NCBI RefSeq assembly: GCF_006335115.1
Contig: NZ_VDMJ01000034.1
Coordinates: forward strand, 1 to 33,507
From: Streptomyces sp. NP160
GTDB taxonomy: Bacteria > Actinomycetota > Actinomycetes > Actinomycetales > Quadrisphaeraceae
Direction of reading: 5' to 3'
DNA length: 33,507 nucleotides
Every line of letters begins with the position of its first letter. Within the stretch, counting starts at the first letter, position 1. Under the pieces are notes generated by a model. It had not been told where the DNA came from and ran no database searches. It worked only from the letters and a program-made list of their open reading frames with translations. Of this stretch, positions 12,522 through 31,353 are shown piece by piece. The position numbers and the translations under genes were made by a program.

Positions 12522-13883
12522 TCAAGGCCCGGTCAAGGCTCCTCGCCGCCGCAGGTGCTCGTGCCAGCGGAGTACGGGCTGGCTGCTCAGCGCCATGTCC
12601 ATTGCCTCCTGCGGGACGTGGGCGGCCTGGAGGAGGGAGAAGGTGGCGAGCAGGTGAGCCGAGGAGCTGAGGTCGGCGGTGAGCTGCCAGTCAGAGCCCG
12701 CGGCCTCGTGGCGGAAGTCGCCGTGTCCGAGGGAGTTTCGATCCGCGACGACGGCAGCGATCCACGTCTCCACGTCGGTCCACAACACGACCGACTCGAA
12801 GCCTGGAAGGCGCCGCAATAGCTCCAGAGTCCGGCCGCGGTAGGTTTTCTCTCCGACTACCAGCAACTTGCCCATTGCCTCTAGGCAGGCATAAGCCGTC
12901 ATCGCGGTGTCTTCGAGGTAACGCTGCTGTCGGTCGTGGTGGGTGGCCACGCGACCAGCGAGGTAGCGCAACGGCTTCGAGAGCTCCATCCATCTGGCGG
13001 GCCCGGCGTCACCCCCGAAGGCGTCGAAGTCGAGTAGTGCGTCGACGAGGGCCAGGCGGGGCGGCGGTCTTGTCTCCTCGCCGGACGTCCTCGTGACCCA
13101 GCCCTTCACCTGGCTTCGCGCCTCCCACGGCGGCTGCTCGGGTAGGCCGAGGCGGACGTGGTCGACGGTGATGTGACGCTCGAAGAGGAGCTCCAAGAGC
13201 GTCCTGAGATGAGCGGCGTCATCGAGGCAGACCTCATAGGCCGTCGGCGAGTCGTACTCCACCACCAGCTTGCAGTGGCGCTCGTAGCTGACTCGCAGGT
13301 GGCTCCAGTGCTCCTGGAACGACGAGTGCAGGCTGATGCGCCCGCGCGAGAACGGGTGACCGTCGCAGAGAATCGGGAGGGGGACGCGGGTCACGGAAGC
13401 GCCGTCTGTCTGTTCGCTCTCCATCCACGTGCGGGTGTTCCACACCGCTAAGGCCTCGCTCTCGACGACGAGCGTGGTGAAGGTCGTCCCGGGGGTTACG
13501 TGGTGTCCGATGACCACCTCGCCCGCCCGCCACCGCTCGACGGTGTGTCCTGATCCAGATTGGCCGCCCGCGTAGGTCGCATCGATGATCGAAACGGGAC
13601 CTCGAACGGTCGAGCCGAAGATGTGTCGAGGAGCGACGGAGACGGCGCGGTGGTGGCGCTCGTCATCGGCGAGAGGAGCGAGGAGAGACAACCTGGCCGT
13701 TCCGCGCTCGTCGAGCGCTAGCGTTCCCCAGGCCTGTTTCGCCTCAGAGGGAAACCACCAGAACCCTGCGTACTCGTCCGGCGGTTCGCGCGGCGCCTCC
13801 ACGGGCCAAGAATGCTGGCGGCGACCCAGCCTTGACAGTGCTTTTCGCTTAGCACTTACTAGATCAACTCTGAGCCGATGCAT
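12522..13883 (-). CDS. ApeA-like HEPN protein, probable anti-phage defence
   Basis: A 453-aa protein. Residues about 38-260 resemble the ApeA N-terminal domain: YAGFWWFP, a G.L.LDE..ARLSLL strand series, FGSTVRGPVSIIDATY. The C-terminal part (about 300-440) is helical and carries the HEPN RNase motif R-x4-H as RNSLGHG (Arg382, His387). ApeA proteins are known single-gene defence systems against phages in Enterobacteria, acting through a HEPN RNase. The ATG at 13883 is chosen because the frame upstream turns into low-complexity sequence and overlaps the divergent methyltransferase. Dispersed palindromes flank the gene. Its TTA, AGA and TCA codon use is less biased than its neighbours, consistent with transfer. 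Confidence 0.75.
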   Translation of the reverse strand: MHRLRVDLVSAKRKALSRLGRRQHSWPVEAPREPPDEYAGFWWFPSEAKQAWGTLALDERGTARLSLLAPLADDERHHRAVSVAPRHIFGSTVRGPVSIIDATYAGGQSGSGHTVERWRAGEVVIGHHVTPGTTFTTLVVESEALAVWNTRTWMESEQTDGASVTRVPLPILCDGHPFSRGRISLHSSFQEHWSHLRVSYERHCKLVVEYDSPTAYEVCLDDAAHLRTLLELLFERHITVDHVRLGLPEQPPWEARSQVKGWVTRTSGEETRPPPRLALVDALLDFDAFGGDAGPARWMELSKPLRYLAGRVATHHDRQQRYLEDTAMTAYACLEAMGKLLVVGEKTYRGRTLELLRRLPGFESVVLWTDVETWIAAVVADRNSLGHGDFRHEAAGSDWQLTADLSSSAHLLATFSLLQAAHVPQEAMDMALSSQPVLRWHEHLRRRGALTGP

Positions 13884-13920
13884 GGCGACGCGTCTTCCCG
13901 GTCGCGTCCTCGCGACCATC

Positions 13921-13966
13921 GTCAGCGTGCCGCTGACCGGATGAGGATCCCATCTGCGACGGAAGA
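13921..13966 (+). repeat. Dispersed palindrome copy 3 with extended repeat
   Basis: GTCAGCG-TGC-CGCTGAC followed by CGGATGAGGATCCCA and TCTGCGACGGA. It lies in the 185-bp divergent gap between the ApeA-like gene and the methyltransferase at 14069, about 37 nt upstream of the ApeA-like start. Confidence 0.7.
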
Positions 13967-14068
13967 CGACCTCGAGCACCAACATCGTCGGCGGCGCCAC
14001 GAGGTGGGCGGTCAGCGGTCGTCGAACGGCACTGCCACCGCGCCGCTCGTTAGTAGGACGATGACGTC

Positions 14069-14773
14069 GTGAGTGACCCAACAGGCGACGGACCAGGAGA
14101 CACCGCCCCCGATGGATCCGCGGTCGAGCTCTACGCCCGCCTACCCCCAGGTTCGGACCCCGAGCTGCTGCACAGCCGTATGCCTCCCGGCGCCAACATC
14201 CTCGACCTGGGCGCCGGCACAGGACGCCTGGCCGACCCACTCGTCGACCTCGGGCACCCAGTGCTCGCCGTGGACGCCTCCCCCACCATGCTCGCTCGGG
14301 TCCGAAGCGCCGCCACACTCACCAGCAGCATCCAAGATCTCCACCTACCCCAGCGCTTTGATGCGGTCCTCCTGGCGAGTCATCTCATCAACTCGCCGAC
14401 CAAAGATCTGCGCCGAGACCTCCTCTCAAGTGTCGAACGACATCTGCTCGGCACAGGTCAAGCCTTCATCGAGTGGCACCCGCCATCGTGGTTCGACGCC
14501 CTGGACCCCGAGCGCTCGTACACCGGCACCATCGGTGACTTCACCACCACCTTGGAGATCCACTCGCTGGCGCAAGGACTGCTGCATGCCACCGTCGCCT
14601 ACCAAGACCACCGGACTGATCAGACGGCGTCGACGTGGCGCCACACCTTCACTGCGCAGCGCCTGACGCGCGAGCTGCTGCAGGCTGAGGCCGATGCTGT
14701 CGGCTTGACCATCGGCCACGCACTGCCCGGCGCGGAGCACTGGCTGATCGCATCTCCACGCCCCGGCACGTAG
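14069..14773 (+). CDS. Class I SAM-dependent methyltransferase
   Basis: A 234-aa enzyme with motif I ILDLGAGTGRLADPL, VLAVDASPTML at strand 2 and a core that reads RFDAVLLASHLIN. The C-terminal half (FIEWHPPSWFDAL, then TFTAQRLTRELL) fits the methyltransf_25-like group. It starts with GTG and has no good Shine-Dalgarno sequence; TAGGAC 9 nt upstream could be a -10 box. It is monocistronic and flanked by palindromes. Its target is unknown. It sits divergent from the ApeA-like gene, but nothing shows they work together. Confidence 0.8.
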   Translation: MSDPTGDGPGDTAPDGSAVELYARLPPGSDPELLHSRMPPGANILDLGAGTGRLADPLVDLGHPVLAVDASPTMLARVRSAATLTSSIQDLHLPQRFDAVLLASHLINSPTKDLRRDLLSSVERHLLGTGQAFIEWHPPSWFDALDPERSYTGTIGDFTTTLEIHSLAQGLLHATVAYQDHRTDQTASTWRHTFTAQRLTRELLQAEADAVGLTIGHALPGAEHWLIASPRPGT

Positions 14774-18047: not shown

Positions 18048-18240
18048 GAGTCGCTCAGCCAGTCATCGTCAGCCAGAGACCGACCGAATGACGGTCCCCC
18101 AGCGGCACGCTCCCGCTCACCGATGGCGGCCTCCACATCTCTTCTCGCGGCCTTGACCTCTGCCTAGGCATGAAGAGTCCCACCATTGCGACGCTCCTGA
18201 CCGAAGGCTTGTAACTGCCGACGCCCTCACGCCCTGTGCG
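18048..18240. other. Intergenic region with a degenerate palindrome
   Basis: No gene seen. AGCGGCACGCT near 18103 is the reverse complement of the AGCGTGCCGCT core of the TGC-loop palindrome, but its outer arms are lost. Confidence 0.35.
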
Positions 18241-18246
18241 TAGCCT
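18241..18246 (+). promoter_or_regulatory. Candidate -10 box of the LysR gene
   Basis: TAGCCT ends 7 nt before the ATG at 18254, so the transcript would be leaderless. No convincing -35 box is visible. Confidence 0.4.
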
Positions 18247-18253
18247 CGGCCCG

Positions 18254-19306
18254 ATGGACGTCCACGGGCTCGACCTACCTCGTCTGAGGGCTTTGGCGGC
18301 CTCCGTCGAGCTCGGCAGCCAAGAGGCAGCAGCCGAGGCGCTGGGCCTCACCCCGTCCGCCCTCTCCCAGCGACTGCAGGCCCTGGAGGCGGCCACGGGA
18401 CGTCCCGTGCTGGTCCGCTCCCGCCCCGTGCTCCCCACAGCGACGGGGCTCGTCCTGATCGACCTGTTGAAGCAGATCGAAGGACTCGAGCCCGCGGCTC
18501 CTCAGCGGGACGCCTCACCGTCCCCCTACCCCGCTCACCGCCCGCGGCTGTCCATAGCGGTGCCGCCGGAGCTGGTGACATGGGCGCTGACCGCGCTCGT
18601 CGGCCTGTCCGTGCAGTGGCAGGTCTCAGTCCTGGAAGCAGACGCCACAGCAGCAGCGGACCTGCTGCGCGCAGGTGAGGTGCTCGGCGCTCTGGTCCTC
18701 TCTCCCCAGCCCATCGGGGGCTGCACCCGCATCGACCTGGGGGCCCTGACCTACAGGGCAGTAGCTAGCCCCGCCTTCGCCGAGCGGTACGGCCTGACGA
18801 GCACTGATGACGCGGACATCACCTCGGCGGTGCGCAGCGCACCGGCGGTGAAGGCCCAGGGTGCTGGCGCTGACCTGTTGGACCAGGTGACCCGGCTGGA
18901 CCAGTCGAGCGAACTCGAGCACGACCTGAGGGCCAGGGCCGACATCCCTGCACACGTACTCCCCGCCGGGGCCAGCCAGATCTCCGCGGTGACGCTGGGC
19001 CTGGGGTGGGCCGTACTGACCGAACCGCAGGTCAGCGAGCTGCTCAAGAGCGGTGACCTGGTCGACGTCGCAGCAGGGCGCGTCCTGCAGCGGACGCTGA
19101 GCTGGCAGCACTGGAACCTCGCGACGCCCGCGGTGAATGAGCTGACCGACGCCGTCGTGGCCGCCTCAGCGCGGCTCCTCGCCGGCGTGACCCCGGCCGG
19201 GACCGACCAGCCGGTGACGACCTCCGAGGTGGATGCGACGTCCGAGCCGGCCAATCACATCCGACCCGCCGCGTCCAATGAGAGGCACGGTGGCGAGTCG
19301 TGGTGA
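18254..19306 (+). CDS. LysR-type regulator, LysG/ArgP-like
   Basis: A 350-aa regulator. The winged HTH contains GSQEAAAEALGLTPSALSQR followed by LQALEAATGRPVLVRSRP. In the effector domain, LRAGEVLGALVLSPQPIGGC matches the LysG/ArgP subfamily, whose members sense lysine or arginine and activate an amino-acid exporter of the LysE/ArgO type. No LysE-like gene is next to it here. A less conserved Ala/Asp-rich stretch lies at about 85-95, and there is an unstructured C-terminal tail. ATG at 18254 chosen from the HTH position. An Lrp-type regulator gene follows on the same strand. Confidence 0.85.
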   Translation: MDVHGLDLPRLRALAASVELGSQEAAAEALGLTPSALSQRLQALEAATGRPVLVRSRPVLPTATGLVLIDLLKQIEGLEPAAPQRDASPSPYPAHRPRLSIAVPPELVTWALTALVGLSVQWQVSVLEADATAAADLLRAGEVLGALVLSPQPIGGCTRIDLGALTYRAVASPAFAERYGLTSTDDADITSAVRSAPAVKAQGAGADLLDQVTRLDQSSELEHDLRARADIPAHVLPAGASQISAVTLGLGWAVLTEPQVSELLKSGDLVDVAAGRVLQRTLSWQHWNLATPAVNELTDAVVAASARLLAGVTPAGTDQPVTTSEVDATSEPANHIRPAASNERHGGESW

Positions 19307-19396: not shown

Positions 19397-19858
19397 GTGA
19401 CGCGTGACCTGGACGACATCGACTTGCGTCTGCTCACCGAGCTGCGCGCCAACGCCCGAGCGAGCCACGCACGGCTCGAGGAGTTGGTGCGGCTCTCGCG
19501 CAACGCGGTGCGACAGCGCATCGACCGGCTCGAGCGCACCGGGCACATCAGCGGCTACACGATCACCGAAGGCAGCGGTACCGCGGGAGCGGCCGCGTCG
19601 GCCGTCAGCGCCACCCTGCTCATCGACAGGGTCGACCGGATGCGCGGTGCGGAGGTGCTGGCGGTCCTGCGGTCGATCCCGGAGGTGGTGCGCTGCGAGG
19701 TCGTCGCCGGAGAGCTGGACCTGTTGGTCCGCGTGGAAGCAGCACACCCCTCCCGGGTGCAGGAGATCTGGACCCAGCTGGCCGCGCTGGCGGGGGTGCG
19801 GGACATCACGACCGCGATGACGCTCAGCAGGGTCATCGACAAGACGGCGGGAGCGTAG
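19397..19858 (+). CDS. Lrp/AsnC family transcriptional regulator
   Basis: A 153-aa regulator. The HTH includes DIDLRLLTELRANARASHAR, then LVRLSRNAVRQRIDRLERTG. The C-terminal RAM/AsnC ligand-binding domain spans about 65-150 (ATLLIDRVDRMRG, VRCEVVAGELDLLVRV). These proteins bind amino acids. It converges on the broken aldehyde dehydrogenase and may belong to the amino-acid locus to the right. GTG start. Confidence 0.9.
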   Translation: MTRDLDDIDLRLLTELRANARASHARLEELVRLSRNAVRQRIDRLERTGHISGYTITEGSGTAGAAASAVSATLLIDRVDRMRGAEVLAVLRSIPEVVRCEVVAGELDLLVRVEAAHPSRVQEIWTQLAALAGVRDITTAMTLSRVIDKTAGA

Positions 19859-19988: not shown

Positions 19989-20934
19989 TCACAGTGCGAT
20001 CGCCACGACCTTGGGCTGCGTCATCTCCTCGAAGGCGAACCGCACACTCTCACGTCCCATCGAGCCGTACTTCGACCCCCCGAAGGGCATCGCGTCCAGG
20101 CGGAAGTCCGACGAGTCGTTGATCATCACTCCTCCTGCCTCGACCGCTTCGGCCACCCGCAGCGCCGTCGTGAGGTCACGGGTGAAGACCCCCGCCTGCA
20201 GGGCGTACTCGCAGTCGTTGGCGGCCGCTACGGCCTCCTGCTCCTGCTCGAAGGTCTCGATGACGACCACAGGGGCGAAGACCTCCTGCTGCCACAGTCC
20301 GCAGCTGCGCGGCACCTCACTGAGCACCGCAGGAGTCAGCTGCGACCCGCGGCGGCCGCCACCGGTCAGCAGCCGCGCACCACCGGACACTGCCTCCTGG
20401 ATCACCGCTGCAGCAGCGCTGGCCGCATCGGCACTGATCATGGGACCGACGTCGGTGGCCTCCTGGCGCGGGTCACCGACCACCAGTGCCGCGGTGGCTG
20501 CCACGAGCTGGTCGGTGAAGTCCTTGGCCACGTCGCGGTGCACCAGCAGGCGCTGGGCCCCGATGCAGTTCTGCCCGGCCGCCCAGAACGCCCCCGAGGC
20601 GCAGGCGCGCACGGCCAGCTCCAGATCGGCATCAGGGAAGACGATCACCGGGGCGTTGCCGCCGAGCTCCATCGCCAACCGCTTGATGCCCGCGGTCGCG
20701 GCAATGGCGCGGGCGGTGGCGAAACCGCCGGTGAAGGAGACCATGCGAACCTCACGAGCTTGCACCAGCACCTGGGTCACCTCAGGGCCCCCGTGGATGA
20801 CGGTGACGACTTGCTCGGGTAGCCCGGCCTCGCGCAGCAGGTCCACCAGCAGCTCAGCGGCCAGCGGCGTGTGCTGGGAGGGTTTGAGGATGACGGCGTT
20901 GCCGCCGGCGATGGCGGGGCCGAGCTTGTGCGCC
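19989..20934 (-). pseudogene. Aldehyde dehydrogenase, C-terminal part (split by IS21 element)
   Basis: This segment encodes the ALDH catalytic and C-terminal regions: [11 protein letters not shown], the general-base Glu in MELGGNAP, the nucleophile Cys in GQNCIGAQR, and the end block APVVVIETF with [21 protein letters not shown]. The frame is intact up to the IS boundary. Removing the IS and one target copy joins it to 23329-23884 and gives an uninterrupted 498-aa protein, normal for the family. The junction then reads [15 protein letters not shown], a conserved ALDH motif. As it stands the gene lacks a start and its cofactor-binding N-terminus. Confidence 0.92.
20930..20934. repeat. Target-site duplication, left copy
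   Basis: GCGCC directly before the IS terminal TGTC; the same 5 bp occur at 23329-23333 after the other end. Confidence 0.85.
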
Positions 20935-21006
20935 TGTCAACGACGGCTGAAAACTGACCCCCTCGCGACGTCCGAAAGTTGACCCCCTAGTTGCTGGATG
21001 TGTCGG

Positions 21007-21891
21007 TCAGGAGTTCATCGACGACGACGTCGAGGAGGTGTTCGTGGTGGTGCGGGTCGCTGCTGTCGGCTGGGTGGCCAGCAGCTCACGGCGGGCTCGG
21101 GTACGCCAGGACGCCCCCGACAGGGTCACGACCTCGGCGTGGTGAACCAGCCGGTCGATCATCGCGGCGGCCACCACGTCATCACCGAAGACCTCACCCC
21201 AGCGCCCGAACGGCATGTTCGAGGTGATCAGCAGTGAGCCGCTCTCGTAGCGGGCGGCGACCAGCTGGAAGAACAGGTTCGCGGCGTGCTGGTCGAAGGG
21301 GATGTACCCGACCTCATCGATGATCAGCAGCCGGTGCTTGCGCAGCCGCTTGATCTCCGCGGCCAGCCGGCCCTCCTCGTGGGCGGCGCCCAGGCGTGCC
21401 AGCCACCCGGTCGCGGTGTCGAACAGCACCGGGTAGCCGGCCTGGACGGCCTTGTAGCCCAGCGCGATCGCCAGGTGGGTCTTGCCCACCCCCGGCGGGC
21501 CCAGCAGCACCAGGTTGTCGGCCCGACCCACGAAGGCGGCACTGGCCAGGTGGGCCAGCACCTCCCGGCGCAGCCCTGGCTGGTGGTCGACGTTGTAGTC
21601 CTCCAACGTCTTGATCGCCGGGAAGTGGGCCCCGGCAGTGCGGATGGCGCAGCCGTTGGCTTCGCGGTCAGCGACCTGACGTGCCAGCACCGCGGCCAGG
21701 TACTCCTCATAGGTCCAGCCCTGATCGCGGGCTTGGTCGGCCAGCACCTGCCAGGTCGCGGCGATGGTGGGGGTCTTCAGCGCCCGGGCCAGGTAGGTCA
21801 GGTGCGCCCCCACGGCGGCATGGTCGCGACCGGGCACGTACCCGGCGTCAGCGGGTAGACCCACCGCGCCGGGAGTGGCGATCGGGCTCAT
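21007..21891 (-). CDS. istB: IS21-family helper ATPase IstB
   Basis: A 294-aa AAA+ ATPase that assists the IstA transposase in target choice. Walker A is GPPGVGKTHLAIAL and Walker B LLIIDEVGYIPFD. The ATG overlaps the istA stop as ATGA. The C-terminus ends in a Thr/Ser/Asn-rich tail. Full length for the family, so apparently intact. Confidence 0.93.
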   Translation of the reverse strand: MSPIATPGAVGLPADAGYVPGRDHAAVGAHLTYLARALKTPTIAATWQVLADQARDQGWTYEEYLAAVLARQVADREANGCAIRTAGAHFPAIKTLEDYNVDHQPGLRREVLAHLASAAFVGRADNLVLLGPPGVGKTHLAIALGYKAVQAGYPVLFDTATGWLARLGAAHEEGRLAAEIKRLRKHRLLIIDEVGYIPFDQHAANLFFQLVAARYESGSLLITSNMPFGRWGEVFGDDVVAAAMIDRLVHHAEVVTLSGASWRTRARRELLATQPTAATRTTTNTSSTSSSMNS

Positions 21892-23259
21892 CGCTGCACC
21901 CCCGTGCTGGCATCAACGCCTGCGCTGACGTCGGGGTCGAAGTGGACCCCAAAGAGGGCGTCGTAGTCCGGTAGCGCCCGCAGCATCACCGGGTGGCCGT
22001 CGTCTTGGTAGTGCACCTGGGCGCGGGCGGCCTGCTCACGGGCGGCGCGCGCGACGGCGAAGTCCGCGCGCAGGGCCTTCGCGCGCACCACGTGCGCAGG
22101 GTCGGTGATGCTCTGGTGGCGGGCCCAGCAGCGCACATGGTCGGCCACCACCTGCCCACCAGTGCCCGTGCTCCTGCCGCTGGTCGTTGCGACCGCGATG
22201 CTCGAGCAGGTCGCCACCACGCGGGTGGGGGTGGTGACCACGTCGATGAAGCGGCCGATGGCGCTGGGGTCCACGGAGTAGTCGTTGCCGTCCACCCGCA
22301 CGTAGTAGTCCCGCCCCAGGCGCACCCGCAGCTGGTGACCGACCACTGGGGCCGCCTGCGGCAGGGCCACCATCGCCGCACGGTCAGCGACCAGGGCCAG
22401 CTCAGGTCGGGTGCCGGTGGCGCGCACCGGGCGGGCATTGGCCCGCGGCAGCCACGCCGCCAGCTGGGCGTTGAAGTCGGCTGGGCTGGCGAAGCGGCGC
22501 CCGGGCAGAAAGGAGGTGTCGCGTGATTGACAGGTAGCCGTTGGTGCGCTCGATGACGCCCTTGGACTCCGGGTCCCGCGGCGGGCACAGCCGCACCCGG
22601 GTGCCTAGCGTCCCGGCGAAGGCGGCCACCTCAGCAGCGACGTGTCCGGACCCACCGATGGCTGACTCCCGGTCCCACACCAGGGTGCGGGTCACCGCCC
22701 CCATCGCAGCGATCAGCTGCCACATCCCGGCCAGAAGGTCCGCGCCAGTACGGCTGGGCAGCATGACGGCGCTGATGTAACGGGAGTAGGCCAGCGTCAT
22801 CGTCAGCACCGGCAACTTGACGATCCCTCCCAGTGCGACAGGACCGGCGACCTGCCCGTAGCCGACGGGAACGGCGGCGGCGGGGAACCACAGGTCGCAC
22901 TGGGTGGCCTGACCCGCCAGGTGCACGATCCGGTCGGCGGGGTCGACGCCGGCGTACTCGGGCCGGATGGCCCGGACGCGGTCCTTCAGGATGGTGATCG
23001 AGTGCGTCCAGGCGATCCGCTCAGCGATCACCGTCGCCGGCATCCGCGGGTGCTCGGCCAGCAGCGCGCGCACCGCCGGTTCGACGGCATCGACCAGGGA
23101 GCCCTTGGCGGGGCGCTGGTAGCGCGGTGGCCGGTCAGCGGCCAGCGCCGCGCGCACGGTGTTGCGCGCTACGCCGAGCCGGCGGGCGACCTCCTTGATC
23201 GGTACCCCTTCAGCGCGGTGCAGTCGGCGGATCTCCGCCCAGTCCTCCACAGTGATCAC
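21888..23259 (-). pseudogene. istA: IS21-family transposase IstA, frameshifted
   Basis: The N-terminal part (23259 to about 22525) has the HTH region (VPIKEVARRLGVARNTVRAA) and the DDE core ending in KGVIERTNGYL. The rest, including FLPGRRFASPADFNAQLAAW and the C-terminal domain to 21888, is in another frame. The break is near 22525-22540, where the minus strand reads CTGTCAATCACGCGACACC. A 4-nt duplication (TCAA/ATCA) there explains the shift. Without it the protein would be about 455 aa, a normal IstA length. It could also be a sequencing error; programmed frameshifting is not usual in IS21. Confidence 0.82.
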
Positions 23260-23328
23260 CCTCCACAGGGTCGGAGGGGGTCAACATTCACCCGACGCCT
23301 GGGGGTCAGTTTTCACGCGTCGTCGACA

Positions 23329-23884
23329 GCGCCACGAGGTTCAGGGGGTCGTTGTAGGGGGTGATGGCCACCAGCAGTCCCAGCGGCTCTCGGGTGTACC
23401 AGCCGCGTCGTCCCTCAGCGCCGGGGAAGGTGTCGAAGGGGACCACCTCCCCCGCGTTGCGGGCGGCTTCAGCTGCTGACAAGCGCAGGGTGTTGACGGC
23501 TCTGGAGACCTCCTTGCGCGCTTGCCTGATGGTCTTGCCCGCCTCTGCCACCAGCAGGCTGGCGACTTCCTCGCTGCGTTCCAGCAGCCGGGTGGCGGCG
23601 CCCTCGAGGATGGCGGTGCGCTGGTGGCGTGGGAGCGCCGCGGCGATCCGGCAGGCCTGGGAGCCCCGGCGCACCGCTGCTGCGGCGTCCTCAGCGGTGT
23701 GCTGAGGCACGGTAGCGAGGACGTGGCCGGTGTACTTGTCACGGACGGGCAAGTCACCGGACAGATCACCGGGCTGGTCACCGGGCGACGCCGCGACCTT
23801 CCCGCCGGGATCACCGACCCCGGCCGCCACAGCCGCAGCGCTCACCATCGACCCTCCAGCGCGCGGTTCTGCCTGCTCAGACAT
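23329..23884 (-). pseudogene. Aldehyde dehydrogenase, N-terminal part (split by IS21 element)
   Basis: Encodes an unusual Gly/Ala/Asp-rich leader of about 45 residues, then VRDKYTGHVLATVPQHTAED and the cofactor-domain region with REPLGLLVAITPYNDPLNLVA. After that the frame runs into the IS end and stops. The ATG at 23884 overlaps the homoserine dehydrogenase stop by 8 nt, so ALDH was the second gene of that operon. Likely substrate, from the neighbour, is aspartate semialdehyde or a related semialdehyde (inference). Confidence 0.9.
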
Positions 23885-24977
23885 CAGCGCCGAGCCCAGC
23901 AGGGTTCACCGAGGGATCTTCGGCGGGGATGCTGCCGTGGGTGCCGGCGGGGGTGCCGGCGTGGATGCTGATGATGTCGGCGATCAGGGCGTAGGCGGTC
24001 TGGGTCCGTCCGGCCCCAGGACCGGTGATGGTGACCTCCCCGAGCAGGTCCGTCGTCAGGCTCAGCGCGTTGGTGGCACCGCTGACCGCCGCCAGGGGGT
24101 GGATGCCAGACAGGGCCCTGGGAGTCACCTGGGCGTGCACGCTGCCGTCGGCCTGCAGGTGGGCTGACCCGATGAGCTTCCAGCGCTCACCTCGCGCTGC
24201 GGCGCTGGTGATGTCGTGGGCGCTGATGCCTTCGATACCCGTGGTGGTGACCTGTGCGGGCAGCACGTGCGCCCCCAGGAGCTCATTGGCCAGGATCGCG
24301 ACCTTCAGCTGGACGTCGGAGCCCTGCAGGTCCGCGCTCGGGTCGGCTTCGGCGTAACCCATCTGCTGGGCCTCAGCGACGGCCTGGGCCATCGACAGTC
24401 CGGTCTCCATGCGGCCCAGGACGTAGTTGCAGGTGCCGTTGAGCACGCCCTGGAAGCCGGTGACGTGCACCCCTGCCAGGGGTCCGCGGATCAGGTTGAA
24501 CACCGGGGTGCCGCTGAGCACGCTGCCTTCGTGCGCGAAGCGCAGCCCCCGCGCCGTGGCCAGGGCGTGCAGGGCGGCCCCCTGCAGCGCCACTGGTCCC
24601 TTGTTGGTGGTGACTACGTGCTTTCCGGACTCCAGCGCCCACCGCACGTGACTGGAGGCCGGCTCCCCTTCGCGGGGGTCGGTGAAGGTGGCCTCCACCA
24701 CAATGTCAGCGGCACAGCCGCGGATCACCGCCTCGTTCTCCGGCGTGGCTGACCCACCGGGGGCACCTGCGAAGGTGGACCCGCGCGGCATGGCCAGCAC
24801 ACGGGCCAGGTCGATGCCGTCGGGCTGGACCAGGGAGCCCATGAGCAGGTCGGTGATGGCCACCACGCGCAGGCCGAACCCGAGCTGGGTGAAGCGCTGC
24901 CGGTCTTCGGCGACCAGCTGGGCCAGAGCCCGGCTGACGCCGCCGAAGCCCACCAGTGCCAGGTCGTAGGTCTGCAT
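23877..24977 (-). CDS. Homoserine dehydrogenase
   Basis: A 366-aa enzyme interconverting homoserine and aspartate semialdehyde. N-terminal NAD(P) site LALVGFGGVSRALAQL, catalytic-domain marks VVTTNKGPVA, GVLNGTCNYVL and GYAEADPSADLQGSDVQLK. There is no C-terminal ACT domain, so no sign of threonine feedback control, which suits a catabolic role. The ATG at 24977 has AGGAGGA 5 nt upstream. The gene was co-transcribed with the ALDH now broken by IS21. It is divergent from the XRE-cupin regulator and its operon. Confidence 0.9.
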   Translation of the reverse strand: MQTYDLALVGFGGVSRALAQLVAEDRQRFTQLGFGLRVVAITDLLMGSLVQPDGIDLARVLAMPRGSTFAGAPGGSATPENEAVIRGCAADIVVEATFTDPREGEPASSHVRWALESGKHVVTTNKGPVALQGAALHALATARGLRFAHEGSVLSGTPVFNLIRGPLAGVHVTGFQGVLNGTCNYVLGRMETGLSMAQAVAEAQQMGYAEADPSADLQGSDVQLKVAILANELLGAHVLPAQVTTTGIEGISAHDITSAAARGERWKLIGSAHLQADGSVHAQVTPRALSGIHPLAAVSGATNALSLTTDLLGEVTITGPGAGRTQTAYALIADIISIHAGTPAGTHGSIPAEDPSVNPAGLGADV

Positions 24978-24997
24978 CGCGATCCTCCTGTAGGTCA

Positions 24998-25026
24998 CCC
25001 CCGGTAGGTCATCCCCGGTAGGCCGT
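24998..25026. repeat. 14-bp tandem repeat upstream of homoserine dehydrogenase
   Basis: About three imperfect copies of a CCCGGTAGGTCA(C/T)C-like unit lie in the 5' leader, just upstream of the Shine-Dalgarno sequence. Confidence 0.5.
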
Positions 25027-25052
25027 CCCGCGCTTCTGCGTGCCGCGGTGAG

Positions 25053-25065
25053 GCTCACTGTGAGC
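25053..25065. promoter_or_regulatory. Palindromic operator candidate 1
   Basis: GCTCAC-T-GTGAGC, a perfect 13-bp palindrome in the divergent control region, closest to the homoserine dehydrogenase side. Confidence 0.45.
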
Positions 25066-25110
25066 GGCCTGCTGCACCAGCGGCGATGGTCGATCCGCTC
25101 GTGGGTGATG

Positions 25111-25139
25111 GCGATCTGCTCGTGGTGGGAGCAGATCGC
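25111..25139. promoter_or_regulatory. Long inverted repeat in the divergent control region
   Basis: Perfect 11-bp arms GCGATCTGCTC and GAGCAGATCGC around a 7-nt GTGGTGG loop. It could be an operator or a leader hairpin. There is no T-tract, so a terminator is unlikely. Confidence 0.55.
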
Positions 25140-25162
25140 TCAGGCTCCCGCGATGCACTCTT

Positions 25163-25197
25163 CTGCACTTCGGAGTGCAGTCGATGTGCGCTACGGT
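25163..25197 (+). promoter_or_regulatory. Promoter with palindromic operator of the XRE-cupin gene
   Basis: CTGCACT-TCGG-AGTGCAG (25163-25180) overlaps the expected -35 position. TACGGT (25192-25197) is a plausible -10 box, 6 nt before the ATG, giving a leaderless transcript. An additional TGCACT at 25154 repeats one half-site. Likely bound by the XRE-cupin protein itself. Confidence 0.6.
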
Positions 25198-25203
25198 GCT
25201 TGC

Positions 25204-25806
25204 ATGAGCGAGGCACAGCCCGTGGAGCACCGCGCGCAGGTCGGCGCCCTGGCCGAGGCCATCGGTGCTCGGGTCCGCGGGTGGCGCACGGAGCGCTCCT
25301 GGACCCTGGACGTGCTCGCGGACCGCTCCGGAGTCAGCCGGCGCACCCTCATCGGCATCGAGCAGGGACAGTCCAACCCCAGCGTCGGTGCCCTGCTGCG
25401 CCTGTCCGCGGCGCTTGGTGTCGCCCTGGCGGCTCTGGTGGAGGAGGAGCGCCCGGCGGGCCTTCAGGTCACCCGCGCAGGAAGCGCCCCGTGCCTGTGG
25501 CAGGGCAGTGCCGGGGGTCGAGGCCTGCTGGTCGGGGCCACCGAGCCGCCGAACGTCGCTGAGCTGTGGGACTGGGTGATGCAGCCCGGTGAGCAGCACT
25601 CCAGCGAGGCCCACACCCCCGGTACCCGTGAGGTGCTGCTGGTGCTGGAAGGGGAGCTGGAGGTGACGGTGGCCGCCCAGAGCAGCCGGCTGCAGGTCGG
25701 GGACTCCGCGGTCCTGGCGGGGGATCAGTCCCACGGGTATGCCTGCGCCGGGGAAGCCCCCACGCGCTTCTCCATGGCAGTCCTGCAGCCAGGAGTACGG
25801 GGCTGA
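25204..25806 (+). CDS. XRE-family regulator with C-terminal cupin domain
   Basis: A 200-aa regulator. HTH at about 15-70 (WTLDVLADRSGVSRRTLIGI, EQGQSNPSVGALLRLSAALG). The cupin domain at about 110-190 contains PGEQHSSEAHTPGTREVLLV and LEGELEVTV. Such regulators usually sense a small ligand through the cupin and control a neighbouring operon. It is the first gene on the rightward side of the divergent region and probably controls both directions. A regulator of this architecture is part of reported canavanine-utilisation loci (recalled, not checked). Confidence 0.87.
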   Translation: MSEAQPVEHRAQVGALAEAIGARVRGWRTERSWTLDVLADRSGVSRRTLIGIEQGQSNPSVGALLRLSAALGVALAALVEEERPAGLQVTRAGSAPCLWQGSAGGRGLLVGATEPPNVAELWDWVMQPGEQHSSEAHTPGTREVLLVLEGELEVTVAAQSSRLQVGDSAVLAGDQSHGYACAGEAPTRFSMAVLQPGVRG

Positions 25807-25933
25807 GGACCCAGCGGCCGCGTGAGCACCTCGGCCCACTCTGCGAGCAGCCCCCAGCAGCAAACAGCAGCCCCATCGACGCTCAGCAGCGCTCAGCGCA
25901 AACCCTACGACCACGACAGCAGGAGCCACCACC

Positions 25934-26659
25934 ATGAGCACGCACCCCACCGGTCAGCAGTGGCTGCAGGAAGCCACGGTCAGCGAGGCCGTCTACGCGC
26001 TGCGCCCGGACTACCGCGCGCTGCTCGTGCTGGCAGAAGACCTGCAGCCCGGCCCCAGCGATGCCAGCAGCGAGGCCCTGCTCGCCGCCGCCGAGCAGCA
26101 AGCCGCGACCGCGCTAGCGGGGGGCCGCCCGGAGGACCTGGCGCCGCTGGCCGCGTGGCGCGAGACCTACCGCGCCTTCGGCGCCAAGCCCCAGCGCACG
26201 CGCCCCAGCGTGGAGGCACTAGTGCGCCGGGTCGAGGCAGGCCTGCCGCGCATCGACCGCATCACCGACACCTACAACGCCATCTCGGTGTCACACCTGA
26301 TGCCGCTGGGCGGGGAGGACGCTGACCGCTACGACGGGCCGCCGCGCCTGGTCCGCGCCGACGGCTCCGAGCAGTTCCACACCGGAGCCGGTGGTGAGCC
26401 CGTCGTGGAGCACCCCGAGGTCGGTGAGGTCGTGTGGGCTGACGCGGCCGGGGTCACGTGCAGGCGCTGGAACTGGCGTCAGTGCACCCGCACCCAGATC
26501 GCCCAGGAGACCACCCGGGCCCTGTTCATCCTGGACAGCCTGCAGGACGTGCAGCCCCTGGAGGACCTGCACGCAGCTGCAGCCCAGCTGCAGACGGCCC
26601 TGGCCGCCTTCAGCCCGCGCGCCACGTTCGCCACGCGGTTGCTGGGTCCCACCGGCTGA
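25934..26659 (+). CDS. Stand-alone B3/B4-domain protein (CtdA-like tRNA-editing candidate)
   Basis: A 241-aa protein of the B3/B4 fold, the editing domain of phenylalanyl-tRNA synthetase beta. Marks are AWRETYRAFGAKPQRTRPSV, LPRIDRITDTYNAISVSHLM and the C-terminal CRRWNWRQCTRTQIAQETTR. A free-standing B3/B4 protein, CtdA, is known to deacylate canavanyl-tRNA(Arg) in a canavanine-degrading Pseudomonas. The next gene here is a gamma-lyase-type PLP enzyme, which fits. Other B3/B4 proteins have unknown roles. ATG with AGGAG 8 nt upstream. Confidence 0.82.
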   Translation: MSTHPTGQQWLQEATVSEAVYALRPDYRALLVLAEDLQPGPSDASSEALLAAAEQQAATALAGGRPEDLAPLAAWRETYRAFGAKPQRTRPSVEALVRRVEAGLPRIDRITDTYNAISVSHLMPLGGEDADRYDGPPRLVRADGSEQFHTGAGGEPVVEHPEVGEVVWADAAGVTCRRWNWRQCTRTQIAQETTRALFILDSLQDVQPLEDLHAAAAQLQTALAAFSPRATFATRLLGPTG

Positions 26660-26739
26660 GGCGGGCCAGCACCCACCCTCAGCGCCGCCCCAGGGCACCC
26701 GGCCCTCGGGCACCACCAGTGCCCTCTTCGGGGACGCCA

Positions 26740-26800
26740 GCCGTGACCACTTCAGGGACACGAGCTGTGACACCAGCAGCGACACCAGTAGTCAGGAGTC
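26740..26800 (+). repeat. Imperfect GACACCAG-type repeats before the PLP enzyme gene
   Basis: Degenerate units (GGGACACGAGC, GTGACACCAGC, AGCGACACCAGT) fill the leader just before the AGGAG Shine-Dalgarno sequence. Similar low-complexity leaders precede other genes in the window. Confidence 0.4.
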
Positions 26801-26807
26801 CGCCCTC

Positions 26808-28115
26808 ATGCCCTCCCCCACCGAGCCGGTGACCCGCCCCGACAAGACCGAGCCGGCCACCCTTGCCTTCGCCACCCAGGCCGTCCACGCCGGCAACACC
26901 ACCGACTCCGCCGGCGGAGCCATCCGCACCCCGATCGTGATGGCCAACTCCTACCTGCTGCCCGAAGACCCCTCCCAGATGGACTGGTCAGACACCGAGA
27001 CGCTGGCCTACACGCGCAACGCGGGGTTCAATCAGATCTGCCTTCAGAACAAGCTGGCGGCCTTCGAGCACGGCGACGATGCCGCCGTCTTCGCCACCGG
27101 CGTCGCCGCGCTGCACGCCATCTTCTTCACCTTCCTCAAAAGCGGCGACCACGTCGTCGTCGGCGACGTCACCTACCAGGCGGTCTGGCGCCTGATGGCC
27201 GAGATCCTGCCGACCAAGTACGGCATCGAGACCACCTTCGTGGACATGAGCGACCTGGACGCCGTCGCCGCAGCGATGCGGCCCAACACCCGCCTGGTGC
27301 ACACCGAGGCGATCGCCAACCCCACCACCAAGGTCGCCGACATCGCTGCCCTCGCCCAGATCGCCCACGCTGGCGATGCGCTGCTCAGCGTTGACTCCAC
27401 CTTCACCCCGCCGCCGTTCTTCCGGCCCCTGGAGCTGGGGGCGGACCTGGTGGCCCACTCCCTGACCAAGTACGTCAACGGCCACGGTGACGCGATGGGC
27501 GGAGTCGTCATCGGATCCCGTGAGCTGGTCAACGCGGTCAAGGCGGAGGCACTGGTCGACGTCGGCGGCGTCATCTCACCCTTCAACGCCTGGCTGATCA
27601 TGCGCGGGTCGGTGACGCTGCCGCTGCGGCTGCGCCAGCACCTGGCGAATGCCGAAGCGGTGGCCGCCTTCCTGGAGGCAGACCCGCGGGTGGCGTTCAC
27701 CTACTACCCGGGCCTGCCCTCCCACCCGCAGCACGAGGTCGCTGTGCGCCAGTTCGCCGGGCGCGGGTTCGGGGCGATGCTCGCCTTCGCCGTCGAAGGT
27801 GACCCCACCACGCAGAACAGGTTCGTGTCCCACCTGCGGATCATCACCTCAGCGGTCTCCCTCGGGCATGACGAGACGCTCATCGTCCACGTTGCTGCTG
27901 AAGCTCGTGGTGGCTCGGAGAGCTACCCGCCGCTGTTCCAGCAGTACGGGCACCTGCGTCTGTCCGTAGGGCTGGAGGAGAGTGAGGACCTCATCGCTGA
28001 CCTGCGCGCTGCCCTGGATGCCACCTTCGGTCCGGTCAGCACCGCCGACAGCACCGACAGCGGCCCCGCCGACAGCACCGCCGGCAGCACTGCGACGACC
28101 CACGGGCAGATGTAG
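26808..28115 (+). CDS. Cys/Met-metabolism PLP-dependent enzyme, candidate canavanine gamma-lyase
   Basis: A 435-aa enzyme of the cystathionine gamma-synthase/methionine gamma-lyase fold. ATQAVHAGNTTDSAGGAIRTPI opens the core, FATGVAALHAI binds PLP phosphate, DSTFTPP carries the cofactor Asp, and HSLTKYVNGHGDAMGG holds the Schiff-base Lys221. The ordinary CGS motif around the substrate Tyr is altered (YTRNAGFNQICLQNKLAAFE). Neighbours (B3/B4 protein, homoserine dehydrogenase, XRE-cupin) match those of canavanine gamma-lyase, which releases hydroxyguanidine and leaves homoserine. A methionine or O-acylhomoserine role cannot be excluded. The C-terminus carries a Ser/Thr/Asp/Gly repeat tail. ATG with AGGAG 9 nt upstream. 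Confidence 0.85.
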   Translation: MPSPTEPVTRPDKTEPATLAFATQAVHAGNTTDSAGGAIRTPIVMANSYLLPEDPSQMDWSDTETLAYTRNAGFNQICLQNKLAAFEHGDDAAVFATGVAALHAIFFTFLKSGDHVVVGDVTYQAVWRLMAEILPTKYGIETTFVDMSDLDAVAAAMRPNTRLVHTEAIANPTTKVADIAALAQIAHAGDALLSVDSTFTPPPFFRPLELGADLVAHSLTKYVNGHGDAMGGVVIGSRELVNAVKAEALVDVGGVISPFNAWLIMRGSVTLPLRLRQHLANAEAVAAFLEADPRVAFTYYPGLPSHPQHEVAVRQFAGRGFGAMLAFAVEGDPTTQNRFVSHLRIITSAVSLGHDETLIVHVAAEARGGSESYPPLFQQYGHLRLSVGLEESEDLIADLRAALDATFGPVSTADSTDSGPADSTAGSTATTHGQM

Positions 28116-28118
28116 CTG

Positions 28119-28433
28119 ATGGCGTGGGTCCTGCTCCTCGGCTCCGGTGCGATGGAGGCCGTCTGGGCCATCGCGCTGGCCGGAGCCGGCAAGACGCGAC
28201 GGATCGCACCAGCGGCCATCTTCGTGGGCGCGACCGCTCTCAGTCTGGGCGGTCTGGCCCTGGCGATGCGGGAGATCCCGACCGGCACCGCCTATGCGGT
28301 CTGGGCGGGCACCGGAGCCGCGCTGACAGTGCTGTAGACCATGGCCACCCGCCCCCAAGAACGATCGCTGACCAGGGTGGGCCTGCTGGTGGCGCTGATG
28401 AGCTGCGTCGTCGGCTTGAAGGTGACCGCCTGA
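28119..28433 (+). pseudogene. SMR (Gdx-type) transporter subunit with in-frame TAG
   Basis: Reads as a complete four-helix SMR protein of 104 codons except for TAG at codon 73 (28335-28337). The first three helices are intact: the essential Glu in GSGAMEAVWAIAL (Glu13) and IPTGTAYAVWAGTGAALTVL, typical of the Gdx/SugE guanidinium-exporter subtype. After TAG the frame continues as helix 4 (RVGLLVALMSCVVGLKVTA) to a TGA that overlaps the next ATG (TGATG). The stop replaces a residue in the middle of a helix of its partner. Recent nonsense mutation, sequencing error or readthrough are the options. Confidence 0.82.
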
Positions 28434-28867
28434 TGGCTTGGACGATCCTGATCATCAGCGCCTGCTTCGAAGCGGTCTGGGCCACGGCGCTGGGGCACTC
28501 TAACGGCCTGCGTGAGCCGATCCCCGTCGTGGTCTTCCTGGTCGCGTTGGTTATCAGCCTGACGGGGCTGTCTCGGGCGATGCGGACCATCTCGGTCAGC
28601 GTCGCCTACTGCGTCTGGGTCTCCATCGGCGCGGTGCTGACCGTGGTCGTAGCCATGGCCAGCGGTCAAGAGCCCGTGTCTGGGATGCGCGCGCTGCTCA
28701 TAGCCGGCGTGATCGCCTGCGTCATCGGACTGAAGGTCTCGACCCCCGAACCCGCCCAGGTCCCCGGCCTGAGCTCGTCTGCGACCCGCTCGGGCGGTGC
28801 AGGAGGCATCGAGCATCGTGCGGGTGGCCGGCCCGATGACCGCGCATCCCCTCGGCCCCGACGTTGA
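28433..28867 (+). CDS. SMR (paired, Gdx-like) transporter subunit
   Basis: A 144-aa four-helix small multidrug resistance protein. Conserved Glu in ISACFEAVWATALG, helix 3 VSVAYCVWVSIGAVLTVVV and helix 4 ALLIAGVIACVIGLKV, then a hydrophilic tail of about 40 residues. It starts at the ATG of TGATG, coupled to the upstream SMR gene, so the two would form a heterodimer. Gdx-type SMRs export guanidinium-like cations. With a gamma-lyase that may release hydroxyguanidine one gene away, export of that product is an attractive role. Confidence 0.85.
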   Translation: MAWTILIISACFEAVWATALGHSNGLREPIPVVVFLVALVISLTGLSRAMRTISVSVAYCVWVSIGAVLTVVVAMASGQEPVSGMRALLIAGVIACVIGLKVSTPEPAQVPGLSSSATRSGGAGGIEHRAGGRPDDRASPRPRR

Positions 28868-28957: not shown

Positions 28958-29854
28958 GTGTTCACCGGATTGAGCGCCTTCCCCCTGACCCCCCTGGACG
29001 AGCAGACCGAGCAAGGCATCGACGAGGCCGCCTATGCCCACCTCGTGCGGCGCTGCGCCGCCGCCGGCGCCGACTCCATCACCGCTCTGGGCTCGACCGG
29101 CTCCTACGCCTACCTCACCCGCACCGAGCGGGCCCGCGTCGCCCAGCTCGCCGTCCAGCACGCCAACGGCGTCCCCGTCATCGTCGGGATCGGCGCCCTG
29201 CGCACCCAGCACGTGCTGCAGCTCGCCGAGGACGCCCAGTCCGCGGGAGCGTCGGGAGTGCTGCTCGCGCCGGTGTCCTACCAGCCCCTGACCCCCGACG
29301 ACGTCCTCGGCCTGTTCCAGGACGTCACCGCCCAGCTGTCGGTGCCGCTGGCCGTGTACGACAACCCCGGCACCACCCGCTTCACCTTCACCGACGACCT
29401 CTACCGCGCCGTCGCCGCCCTGCCCGGTGTCGCCTCGATCAAGATCCCCGGCATCGCGCAGGACCCCGCGGACGCGGCCGCGCGCGTCGCGCAGCTGCGG
29501 GCGCTGCTGCCCGCGCACGTCAGCGTCGGCATCTCCGGAGACTCCCAGGCCGCGCGCGGCCTGCTCGCCGGGTGCCAGGCCTGGTACTCCGTCATCGGCG
29601 GCACCCTGCCCGAGGTCGCGGTGGAGCTGACCGCGGCAGCCCTCGGAGGTGACACCGAGCGCACCGAGCAGCTCTCGGCGCGCCTGCGCCCGCTGTGGGA
29701 CCTGTTCTCCCGCCACGGCAGCTACCGCACGACCGCCGCCGTCGCGGAGCACCTCGGGCTCGCGCGGCGCTCCTGCCTGCCGCTGCCGGTCCGCGGCCTG
29801 GACGACGACGCCCGCGCGCAGGTGGCCCGCGTCGTGGACGCCCTGGGCCTGTGA
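28958..29854 (+). CDS. DapA/N-acetylneuraminate lyase family class I aldolase
   Basis: A 298-aa TIM-barrel enzyme. LGSTGSYAYLTRTER is the substrate-carboxylate loop, VYDNPGTTRF carries the catalytic Tyr134 and SIKIPG the Schiff-base Lys162. DapA itself condenses pyruvate with aspartate semialdehyde. The adjacent homoserine dehydrogenase would supply that semialdehyde, so a link is possible, but family members use many substrates. GTG start with GAGAGCGAG just upstream. Probably last enzyme gene of the rightward operon. Confidence 0.87.
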   Translation: MFTGLSAFPLTPLDEQTEQGIDEAAYAHLVRRCAAAGADSITALGSTGSYAYLTRTERARVAQLAVQHANGVPVIVGIGALRTQHVLQLAEDAQSAGASGVLLAPVSYQPLTPDDVLGLFQDVTAQLSVPLAVYDNPGTTRFTFTDDLYRAVAALPGVASIKIPGIAQDPADAAARVAQLRALLPAHVSVGISGDSQAARGLLAGCQAWYSVIGGTLPEVAVELTAAALGGDTERTEQLSARLRPLWDLFSRHGSYRTTAAVAEHLGLARRSCLPLPVRGLDDDARAQVARVVDALGL

Positions 29855-29949: not shown

Positions 29950-31353
29950 GTGGACGAAACTGTGCGCAGTCCTCGTGACGACTCCGCTGAGCGCTCCTTC
30001 GAGGGCTCCGTCCACAACCGCGGCGAAGACCCTATCGACGCCCCCGTCGATGACCCTGTTGACGATCCTGGTGACGGCCGTGGTGACGATGCGGGTGGCA
30101 TTACGCGGTCGGGTCTTGCCGGCACACGCCGGACCGCTTTGGCCCGCTACGTCATCGCCGCGACCCTGGCTCGCACCGCTGATGGCGGCGCGGTGGTGGC
30201 GATCGTGCTGCTGGTCACCACCACGGGTGGCCCAGGATGGCTTGGAGGCCTGCTCGCAGCGTGCCTGACCGCACCGCACCTGGCCGGACCGTTCATCGCC
30301 CGCCCTCTGGACACAGCACGCGACGGTCGAAAGGTCATCTCCGCGGCATGCCTGGGCCACGGCGCGACCCTGGCCGCAGCAGTCCTGCTGTATCCAATGG
30401 TCCACCCCGCGGTCTGCGCCCTGCTGCTGGCCGCCTCGGGACTGCTGGGCCCCCTGCTGACCGGGGGCATCAGCAGCCGGCTACCGGCCATCGCCGGCCC
30501 AGGCCAGCGCGACCAGCGCCGCGCCCAGGGCTGGGACGTGGCGACCTACGGCATCGGGGGGACCATCGGCCCGTCAGTGGTCGCAGCCGTGACCGCATGG
30601 TCCAGCGCAACCACCGCCGCGCTGGTGCTCGCCGCGGCCACCGTGGTCGCTGCCGCCCTGGTGATGCTGCTGCCCGCTGACCGCGTGAAGCCGACCTCAG
30701 CGGCGACGCCCCAACCGGCGGCGACGCTGGGGTTGATGCTGCGCCACGGGCCGCTGCGCCGGACGCTCTACCTGACGATGGCGGTGTCGGCCTCAGTCTC
30801 GGTGCTACCGGTGACCGCGGTGGCCTCCACCGGCGCGCTGGGCGTCGGGCACGCCGCTGCGGGGGTGCTGACCTCCGCGTACGGGATCGGCGGGCTCGCT
30901 GCCTCAGGGGTGCTGATGGTCCGCCCGCTGGCCGGGGATGCGGACCGCAGCACCACGGTGCTGGCGGTCGCCGTCGCAGGCGGCTTGGTCGCGGTGCTGG
31001 TCTCGGGGGTCTTCGGGGTGGCGGTGGCCACCTACGCGCTGGCGGGAGCGCTGAACTCGTTGTTCTTCGCAGCGACCTTAGCGGCGCGCAGCGAGTACGC
31101 GCCGGTGCAGGCGCGGGGGCAGGTGTTCGTCTGGATCGGAGCGTTGAAGATCACGGCCGGGTCTGCGGGGACGGCAACGGCTGGGGCGCTGGTGGCCGCC
31201 TCGGTGGCGTTGCCTCTGCTAATCGGTGTGGGACTGAGCTCGGTCGCGGCCTTGGCCAGCGCCCTCGAGCGGCACGGCATGCACCGCAGGCGGTCAGGCA
31301 CCGCCGCCGCTAGGGCAACCTCGGCTCCTGCACGGGTGCAGCGCCGCGAATAG
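29950..31353 (+). CDS. MFS transporter
   Basis: Up to 467 aa with about twelve hydrophobic helices from residue 66 on (ARYVIAATLARTADGGAVVA). RPLDTARDGRKVI is the loop after helix 2, and the protein ends in an Arg/Ala-rich tail. The N-terminal 60 residues are Asp-rich and repetitive (DAPVDDPVDDPGDGRGDD), unlike the rest, so a later start is possible. Transport substrate unknown; may serve uptake or efflux for the amino-acid locus. Confidence 0.82.
   Translation: MDETVRSPRDDSAERSFEGSVHNRGEDPIDAPVDDPVDDPGDGRGDDAGGITRSGLAGTRRTALARYVIAATLARTADGGAVVAIVLLVTTTGGPGWLGGLLAACLTAPHLAGPFIARPLDTARDGRKVISAACLGHGATLAAAVLLYPMVHPAVCALLLAASGLLGPLLTGGISSRLPAIAGPGQRDQRRAQGWDVATYGIGGTIGPSVVAAVTAWSSATTAALVLAAATVVAAALVMLLPADRVKPTSAATPQPAATLGLMLRHGPLRRTLYLTMAVSASVSVLPVTAVASTGALGVGHAAAGVLTSAYGIGGLAASGVLMVRPLAGDADRSTTVLAVAVAGGLVAVLVSGVFGVAVATYALAGALNSLFFAATLAARSEYAPVQARGQVFVWIGALKITAGSAGTATAGALVAASVALPLLIGVGLSSVAALASALERHGMHRRRSGTAAARATSAPARVQRRE

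Follow-up and report, generated by a model that had tools for sequence, protein, structure and literature searches.

Is there a canavanine locus in Actinobacteria? Canavanine is a major defense compound of legumes, and the canavanine trait has so far been described mainly in pseudomonads and rhizobia. The question is raised by a group of genes in Streptomyces sp. NP160, on a stretch of DNA comprising bases 1 to 33507 of one contig (NZ_VDMJ01000034.1) in a 4.77-Mb draft genome; we refer to this whole stretch of 33,507 bases as the window. An earlier interpretation made from the letters alone (the sequence-only reading) had noticed here a Cys/Met-type pyridoxal phosphate (PLP) enzyme, a stand-alone B3/4 protein, an XRE-cupin regulator, an ACT-less homoserine dehydrogenase (HSD) and an aldehyde dehydrogenase (ALDH) around one divergent promoter region, and had proposed that they degrade canavanine. 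Judging from sequence comparisons, we consider an actinobacterial canavanine detoxification/utilization locus to be the probable explanation, with a probability of roughly 75%.

All of these genes are present, although the ALDH gene is not intact. The full order is an ArgP-like gene, an Lrp-like gene, the C-terminal part of ALDH, an IS21-type element, the N-terminal part of ALDH, HSD, a divergent gap, the XRE-cupin gene, the B3/4 gene, the PLP enzyme gene, two SMR genes (SMR1 and SMR2), a DapA-like gene and an MFS gene. The sequence-only reading had overlooked the SMR, DapA-like, MFS, Lrp-like and ArgP-like genes, together with the split in ALDH, the interruption of SMR1 and the mostly solitary state of actinobacterial relatives of the PLP enzyme; the left limit that it drew, at 23329, coincides with an edge of the IS21-type element.

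A predicted canavanine gamma-lyase

The PLP enzyme (26808 to 28115, + strand) matches Pfam Cys_Met_Meta_PP at 355.6 bits. In a careful tree of 100 rows, it falls within a clade (support 100/100) together with the enzymes of rhizobial and pseudomonad canavanine loci, to which it is 69 to 75% identical, and apart from the methionine gamma-lyases, in agreement with the sequence-only reading. The sister group of this clade stands at 42 to 45% identity to the window enzyme. (The careful tree was built without L033, the second L012 copy, distant paralogues and identical rows, and a quick tree without L005, L006 and L008; partial matches of fewer than 250 residues were left out of the comparison.)

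The window enzyme carries the clade markers K221, A125, V250, H354 and D355. The lysine at 221, already singled out in the sequence-only reading, is invariant (10/10 rows of a small alignment and 103/103 clade rows), and H354 and D355 are likewise found in 103/103 clade rows and are rare elsewhere. Alanine at position 125 and valine at position 250 of the window enzyme each occur in 102/103 clade rows, where the reference methionine gamma-lyase 3jw9, which we take to be from Citrobacter freundii, has cysteine and lysine. Because 25 more distant rows mostly also lack this cysteine and lysine, A125 and V250 mark a contrast with methionine gamma-lyase and are no private signature of the clade.

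When the enzyme was compared with 72,556 plasmid records by tblastn, 1353 records matched, 15 of them at 60 to 80% identity and 1338 below 60%. The 15 comprise 13 from Mesorhizobium, Rhizobium, Sinorhizobium or Agrobacterium, one from Paraburkholderia and one from Streptomyces, and among the best 40 of the 1353 records the next relatives stand at 42 to 45%. A genome scan gave loci at 67 to 75% identity, some of them in Actinomycetota (best 80 of 339 relatives). Within the order, matches at E 1e-150 or better were found in 16/396 genomes, belonging to 8/109 genera. Going by clade and residues, its identification as a predicted canavanine gamma-lyase (CanGL) is well supported.

A CtdA-like B3/4 protein

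The B3/4 protein (25934 to 26659, + strand) has B3_4 as its sole Pfam domain (73.6 bits) and is predicted to be a canavanyl-tRNA(Arg) deacylase. Its match to PDB 9f7e, an entry titled CtdA canavanyl tRNA deacylase, reaches 175 bits (E 2.3e-50, residues 16 to 241 of 241 aligned), and that to PDB 9mkl 156 bits. The 9f7e protein and the B3/4 protein of Pseudomonas agronomica are 98% identical; in the locus of the latter (L066), HTH, B3/4, Lrp, ALDH, PLP, SMR and ABC genes stand together. The window protein shares 44% identity with the P. agronomica protein and 43 to 44% with its counterparts in rhizobial and pseudomonad canavanine loci. It has the stand-alone B3/4 form in common with CtdA (PMC10018355; PDB 9f7e) and differs in branching with actinobacterial homologues, which are its nearest rows in the B3/4 tree. 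(That tree was built without PheT, without the active Clostridium homologue and without 24 loci: 23 copies of longer loci, plus L140, which has no longer copy.) According to PMC10018355, a homologue from Clostridium perfringens at 35% identity likewise prevented canavanylation. Since a homologue is active at 35%, CtdA function plausibly extends to the window protein, and deacylase activity is plausible at its 43 to 44% identity. Elsewhere in the genome, B3_4 matches once more, at 223.1 bits, in an open frame of 1241 residues that we take for PheT.

The gene set resembles a rhizobial canavanine locus

The neighborhood resembles that on Rhizobium leguminosarum plasmid pRLN3 (L011), which holds HTH, B3/4, four ABC, PLP, SMR, HSD, ALDH and dapA genes along with genes for an aspartate ammonia-lyase, a phosphotransferase, Lrp, a second DapA, LysE and ArgP. 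Nine window families have relatives there at 34 to 73% identity, MFS being the exception: PLP 73%, HSD 59%, ALDH 55% (N-terminal part) and 58% (C-terminal part), Lrp 54%, second DapA 46%, B3/4 43%, SMR2 36%, XRE 34% and ArgP 34%. As in the rhizobial type of locus, the PLP, B3/4, regulator, SMR, HSD and ALDH genes are all together in the window.

The HSD gene (23877 to 24977, - strand) is the genome's second copy. It matches Homoserine_dh at 195.3 bits, with ACT absent among its Pfam matches, and NCBIfam NF004912 at 407.9 bits (cut-off 373). The protein is 61% identical to that of Streptomyces griseoruber (L035), as against 39%, over part of the length, to the genome's other copy. Given likely starts at 24977 for HSD and at the ATG at 25204 for the XRE gene, HSD (-) and XRE (+) diverge across a 226-base gap (24978 to 25203), the single divergent region that had been noticed.

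Relative to the pathway of Pseudomonas canavaninivorans and Rhizobiales, the PLP clade, the SMR, HSD, ALDH, Lrp and DapA-like genes, and the nearby B3/4 and HTH regulator genes are the same. The window differs in its actinobacterial host, in having HSD and ALDH on the opposite strand, two SMR genes, MFS instead of an ABC importer and a split ALDH, and in that no aspartate ammonia-lyase, phosphotransferase or LysE gene was found in its locus, neither was LysE detected beside ArgP as in R. leguminosarum. Relatives of aspartate ammonia-lyase lie elsewhere in the genome, at 49% and 44%.

Such neighbors recur with the clade. Among 62 proteobacterial clade loci, B3/4 is nearby in 40, SMR in 36, HSD in 33 and ALDH in 53, versus 0, 0, 1 and 1 of 6 sister-group loci; the counts are lower bounds because loci cut by contig ends are included. 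The PLP clade, the CtdA match and the neighborhood all support the canavanine interpretation.

Proposed pathway

We infer that the PLP enzyme would cleave L-canavanine by gamma-elimination to hydroxyguanidine and homoserine, that the ACT-less HSD and ALDH would take homoserine by way of aspartate semialdehyde to aspartate, and that the B3/4 protein would hydrolyze canavanyl-tRNA(Arg). The SMR proteins may export guanidine-type products, and the XRE-cupin protein could control both arms from the common divergent region. SMR proteins are known to export guanidinium. In the CanGL paper of Hauth et al. (2022), homoserine dehydrogenase, aspartate semialdehyde dehydrogenase and aspartate ammonia-lyase steps reportedly follow the lyase. 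PMC10018355 and PMC12508155 give homoserine and hydroxyguanidine as the products of canavanine gamma-lyase, and PMC11018352 mentions secretion of hydroxyguanidine by P. canavaninivorans.

Weighing the alternatives

Several observations speak against a canavanine locus. Inside its clade, the window enzyme sits on an open fork whose further branches are Streptomyces, Brevibacterium, rhizobial, pseudomonad/burkholderial and otherwise actinobacterial. In the B3/4 tree, the window protein falls outside the proteobacterial CtdA clade (38 rows, SH-aLRT 100), which neighbors it in an open fork of 74 rows (SH-aLRT 87), a placing made weak by long branches; the relatedness to CtdA that the sequence-only reading assumed holds, and membership in that clade does not. 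Because of this position, and because the active Clostridium homologue is absent from the tree, we label the protein CtdA-like. No counterparts of the L011 canavanine ABC importer genes were found next to the window genes, the one distant ABC match lying outside the locus, and 22/62 proteobacterial clade loci have no B3/4 gene nearby. At 25 other actinobacterial PLP-clade loci, B3/4 is nearby in 1, SMR in 2, HSD in 1 and ALDH in 3; clade membership alone is therefore no proof of canavanine use in this phylum. Strong B3/4 matches (E 1e-60 or better), present in 25/396 genomes of the order, occur in 3/16 PLP-positive and 22/380 PLP-negative genomes (p 0.07), and in 2/15 PLP-positive genomes when the window's own genome is excluded (p 0.23), a weak association.

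The alternative that survives best is that the locus is decaying and that canavanine use has been lost in this strain, which would be compatible with the gene identities proposed here; we consider it unlikely but deserving of attention. The N-terminal part of ALDH (23306 to 23884, - strand; Pfam Aldedh profile 8-146) is separated from the C-terminal part (19989 to 20846, - strand; profile 174-461) by the IS21-type element (20935 to 23328; IstB 248.2 bits, rve 42.5 bits), and the R. leguminosarum relative is an uninterrupted frame of 472 residues. SMR1 (28119 to 28433, + strand) has an in-frame TAG at 28335 to 28337, and of the six genomes of the genus, the window's own alone has a PLP match at E 1e-150 or better. 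Against decay, the PLP, B3/4, XRE, HSD, SMR2, DapA-like and MFS frames are open, and the PLP and B3/4 proteins keep their conserved positions. The element, whose ends match at 21/24 bases, is bordered by a 5-base duplication, GCGCC, at 20930 to 20934 and 23329 to 23333, which is still exact and therefore suggests a recent insertion; the draft assembly may also contain errors, at the insertion as at the SMR1 stop. With ALDH split and SMR1 stopped, the carbon branch may be blocked and full carbon use lost, with cleavage and editing, and hence detoxification, still able to run. Given a correct assembly, biosynthesis would have to consume the aspartate semialdehyde, and the locus would be of use for detoxification more than for growth.

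The istA part of the element consists of two overlapping frames (21888 to 22427 and 22402 to 23259), which could reflect a frameshift or a programmed one. Insertion elements are also present in the rhizobial canavanine loci L015 and L018, an example being the IS110 gene that lies between HSD and ALDH in Sinorhizobium alkalisoli.

It is rather improbable that the enzyme, although of the same clade, acts on another gamma-substituted amino acid in a different homoserine-yielding pathway. Such pathways may exist: a locus of Rhizobium acidisoli pRapFH23b (L116, 3236 to 13926) combines a sister-group PLP enzyme with HSD, ALDH, ABC, aspartate ammonia-lyase, phosphotransferase and Lrp genes, has no B3/4 or SMR gene, and perhaps serves a substrate of this sort. 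Many actinobacterial clade members, too, have no canavanine genes nearby. However, the L116 enzyme is 42% identical to the window enzyme and belongs to a separate group at 100/100, and the substrate suggested by the window's CtdA-like protein and SMR genes is a guanidino compound. Another sister-group enzyme (43%), in Rhizobium sp. SL42 (L119, 10004 to 12171), adjoins a homocysteine S-methyltransferase family gene and ABC importer genes.

That the enzyme is an ordinary methionine gamma-lyase, cystathionine enzyme or O-acetylhomoserine sulfhydrylase with neighbors assembled by chance is very hard to sustain: it shares their superfamily, its best PDB matches are methionine gamma-lyases (up to 287.7 bits, with no chain titled canavanine gamma-lyase among 60 of the 93 matches) and its best NCBIfam models bear such names, but all those models fall far under their cut-offs (25 of 55 listed), the clade is a separate one, the cysteine and lysine positions of methionine gamma-lyase are changed (as they mostly are in the 25 distant rows) and B3/4, SMR, HSD and ALDH neighbors recur with the clade. 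A canavanine locus remains the explanation that we favor.

The XRE-cupin regulator and a candidate operator

The XRE-cupin regulator (25204 to 25806, + strand) has HTH_3 and Cupin_2 domains and is 44 to 58% identical to regulators beside actinobacterial B3/4 genes. In the gap that it shares with HSD lies a candidate operator (25154 to 25190) with half-sites TGCAC, GTGCA or GTGCG at 25154, 25164, 25175 and 25186. The corresponding repeat, TGCA-N6,7-TGCA, occurs between -150 and +45 of 24/26 distinct XRE genes of the window type, where shuffles give an expectation of 0.26 and the background rate is 77/6384 stretches of 195 bases; a few of the 26 regions share one genome, and the count is post hoc, as the motif was defined after inspection of the sequences. 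The two regions lacking it are on a Streptomyces NBC_01445 plasmid (L161, the same place as L012) and in Neorhizobium (L092). None of 36 distinct upstream regions of rhizobial or proteobacterial-type regulators has the repeat. Among nine fresh loci, mostly from outside the order, two have an XRE gene beside B3/4 and one of these two has the repeat, which therefore appears to track the close XRE type and not every B3/4 gene.

Near actinobacterial PLP genes, the repeat is found, besides the window, only in G099 (L134, identical to L033), and near proteobacterial ones only in L063. No operator of its own was found at the window PLP gene, as both matches there lie within the B3/4 gene. At L134 (9294 to 12180), a divergent clade member (58%) has a TGCA repeat at -76 and is followed about 1.1 kb downstream by a window-type XRE gene; this is another hint that a PLP gene may be controlled by this type of regulator. 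No guanidine riboswitch was found: nothing in the window matched Rfam at gathering score, and between 24500 and 29100 there are five weak Rfam matches, none to a guanidine family.

Two modules in Actinobacteria

An XRE or HTH relative is present at 25/41 B3/4 loci (duplicates included). In the longer stretches, XRE is followed by B3/4 and often by a transporter (EamA in the one example scanned), with a DapA-like gene in several and MFS in few. These XRE-B3/4-(EamA)-(DapA-like)-(MFS) cassettes share with the window the XRE type, the B3/4 type, the DapA-like gene, sometimes MFS, and the upstream repeat; no CanGL-clade, HSD or SMR gene is marked beside them. In the window, by contrast, CanGL and two SMR genes separate B3/4 from the DapA-like gene, and there is no EamA. 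The window thus looks like a CtdA cassette that also contains CanGL and SMR genes, with an HSD-ALDH arm facing away, and it unites the two modules, in an order of events that we can infer at most.

Among 41 actinobacterial rows (window included; four rows are repeated genomes under another id), no family besides PLP occurs at more than six loci. The window has the fullest actinobacterial set among the loci compared. S. griseoruber L035 has PLP, Lrp, two SMR, AspA, ALDH, HSD and MFS relatives, and on the same contig, about 28 kb away, B3/4 finds a weaker match at 37%. Strong B3/4 co-occurs in 9/25 actinobacterial genomes or records, a sample that spans orders and includes one plasmid; in a phylum sample, B3/4 at E 1e-55 or better is found in 9/396 genomes, the window's own included.

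Tentatively, and with odds that we would put somewhat short of even, these cassettes may represent a protein-sensed canavanine defense regulon of Actinobacteria. An XRE-cupin protein binding TGCAC repeats at 10- to 11-base spacing would govern a CtdA-like editor, EamA/MFS transporters and a functionally novel DapA-like enzyme; a small number of lineages, that of the window among them, would have gained CanGL and homoserine catabolism in addition, so that a cassette for resistance became a pathway for nutrition. Such a joined gene set would link translation quality control, a DapA-like enzyme and a candidate operator in one possible regulon.

On Deinococcus plasmids (L208, 4851 to 7510; L209, 4859 to 6687), a B3/4 gene (46%) follows GNAT acetyltransferase and pyridoxamine-oxidase-like genes, with EamA next in L208, forming a different B3/4 cassette. 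A canavanine-selective GNAT has been described from Lactobacillus curiae.

Novelty and significance

Like the sequence-only reading, we found no report of such a locus in Actinobacteria in the literature searched, and no name in print for the actinobacterial XRE-B3/4 cassettes; subscription papers and preprints lay outside the search. The title of the CanGL paper names Pseudomonadaceae and Rhizobiales. The term "actinobacteria" has 0 occurrences in PMC10018355. The locus is thus a known system in a phylum for which no report was found, in a new arrangement, with the candidate regulon as its more novel aspect. Actinobacteria rose in soil after canavanine addition, according to PMC8503639, which calls the cause not clear; loci of this kind offer a testable reason for that rise.

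Neighboring genes

Adjoining the PLP gene are the SMR genes. Up to its stop, SMR1 is 46% identical to SMR2 (28433 to 28867, + strand), a possible guanidinium-type exporter that matches Multi_Drug_Res at 62.8 bits; among NCBIfam models, SugE scores highest for SMR2, with 63.5 bits (cut-off 126). The DapA-like enzyme (28958 to 29854, + strand; DHDPS 104.7 bits) has relatives at 54 to 61% in similar pseudomonad and actinobacterial loci, including some at 54 to 58% in Pseudomonas and Pantoea clade loci, where in Pseudomonas they adjoin B3/4. This gene recurs with actinobacterial B3/4 genes also where no PLP gene is nearby, and its closest solved relative is 2r8w, an Agrobacterium protein titled AGR_C_1641p. 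The MFS transporter (29950 to 31353, + strand; MFS_1 38.7 bits) has relatives at 55 to 60% in L035, L174 and L180.

At the other end, an ArgP/LysG-like LysR regulator (18236 to 19306, + strand) matches NCBIfam NF002964 at 212.6 bits (cut-off 197), and an Lrp/AsnC-like regulator (19397 to 19858, + strand) is 55% identical to Lrp proteins near Streptomyces PLP genes. Farther off, the window encodes a protein with an ApeA_NTD1 domain (12522 to 14318, 69.8 bits); ApeA is an anti-phage protein.

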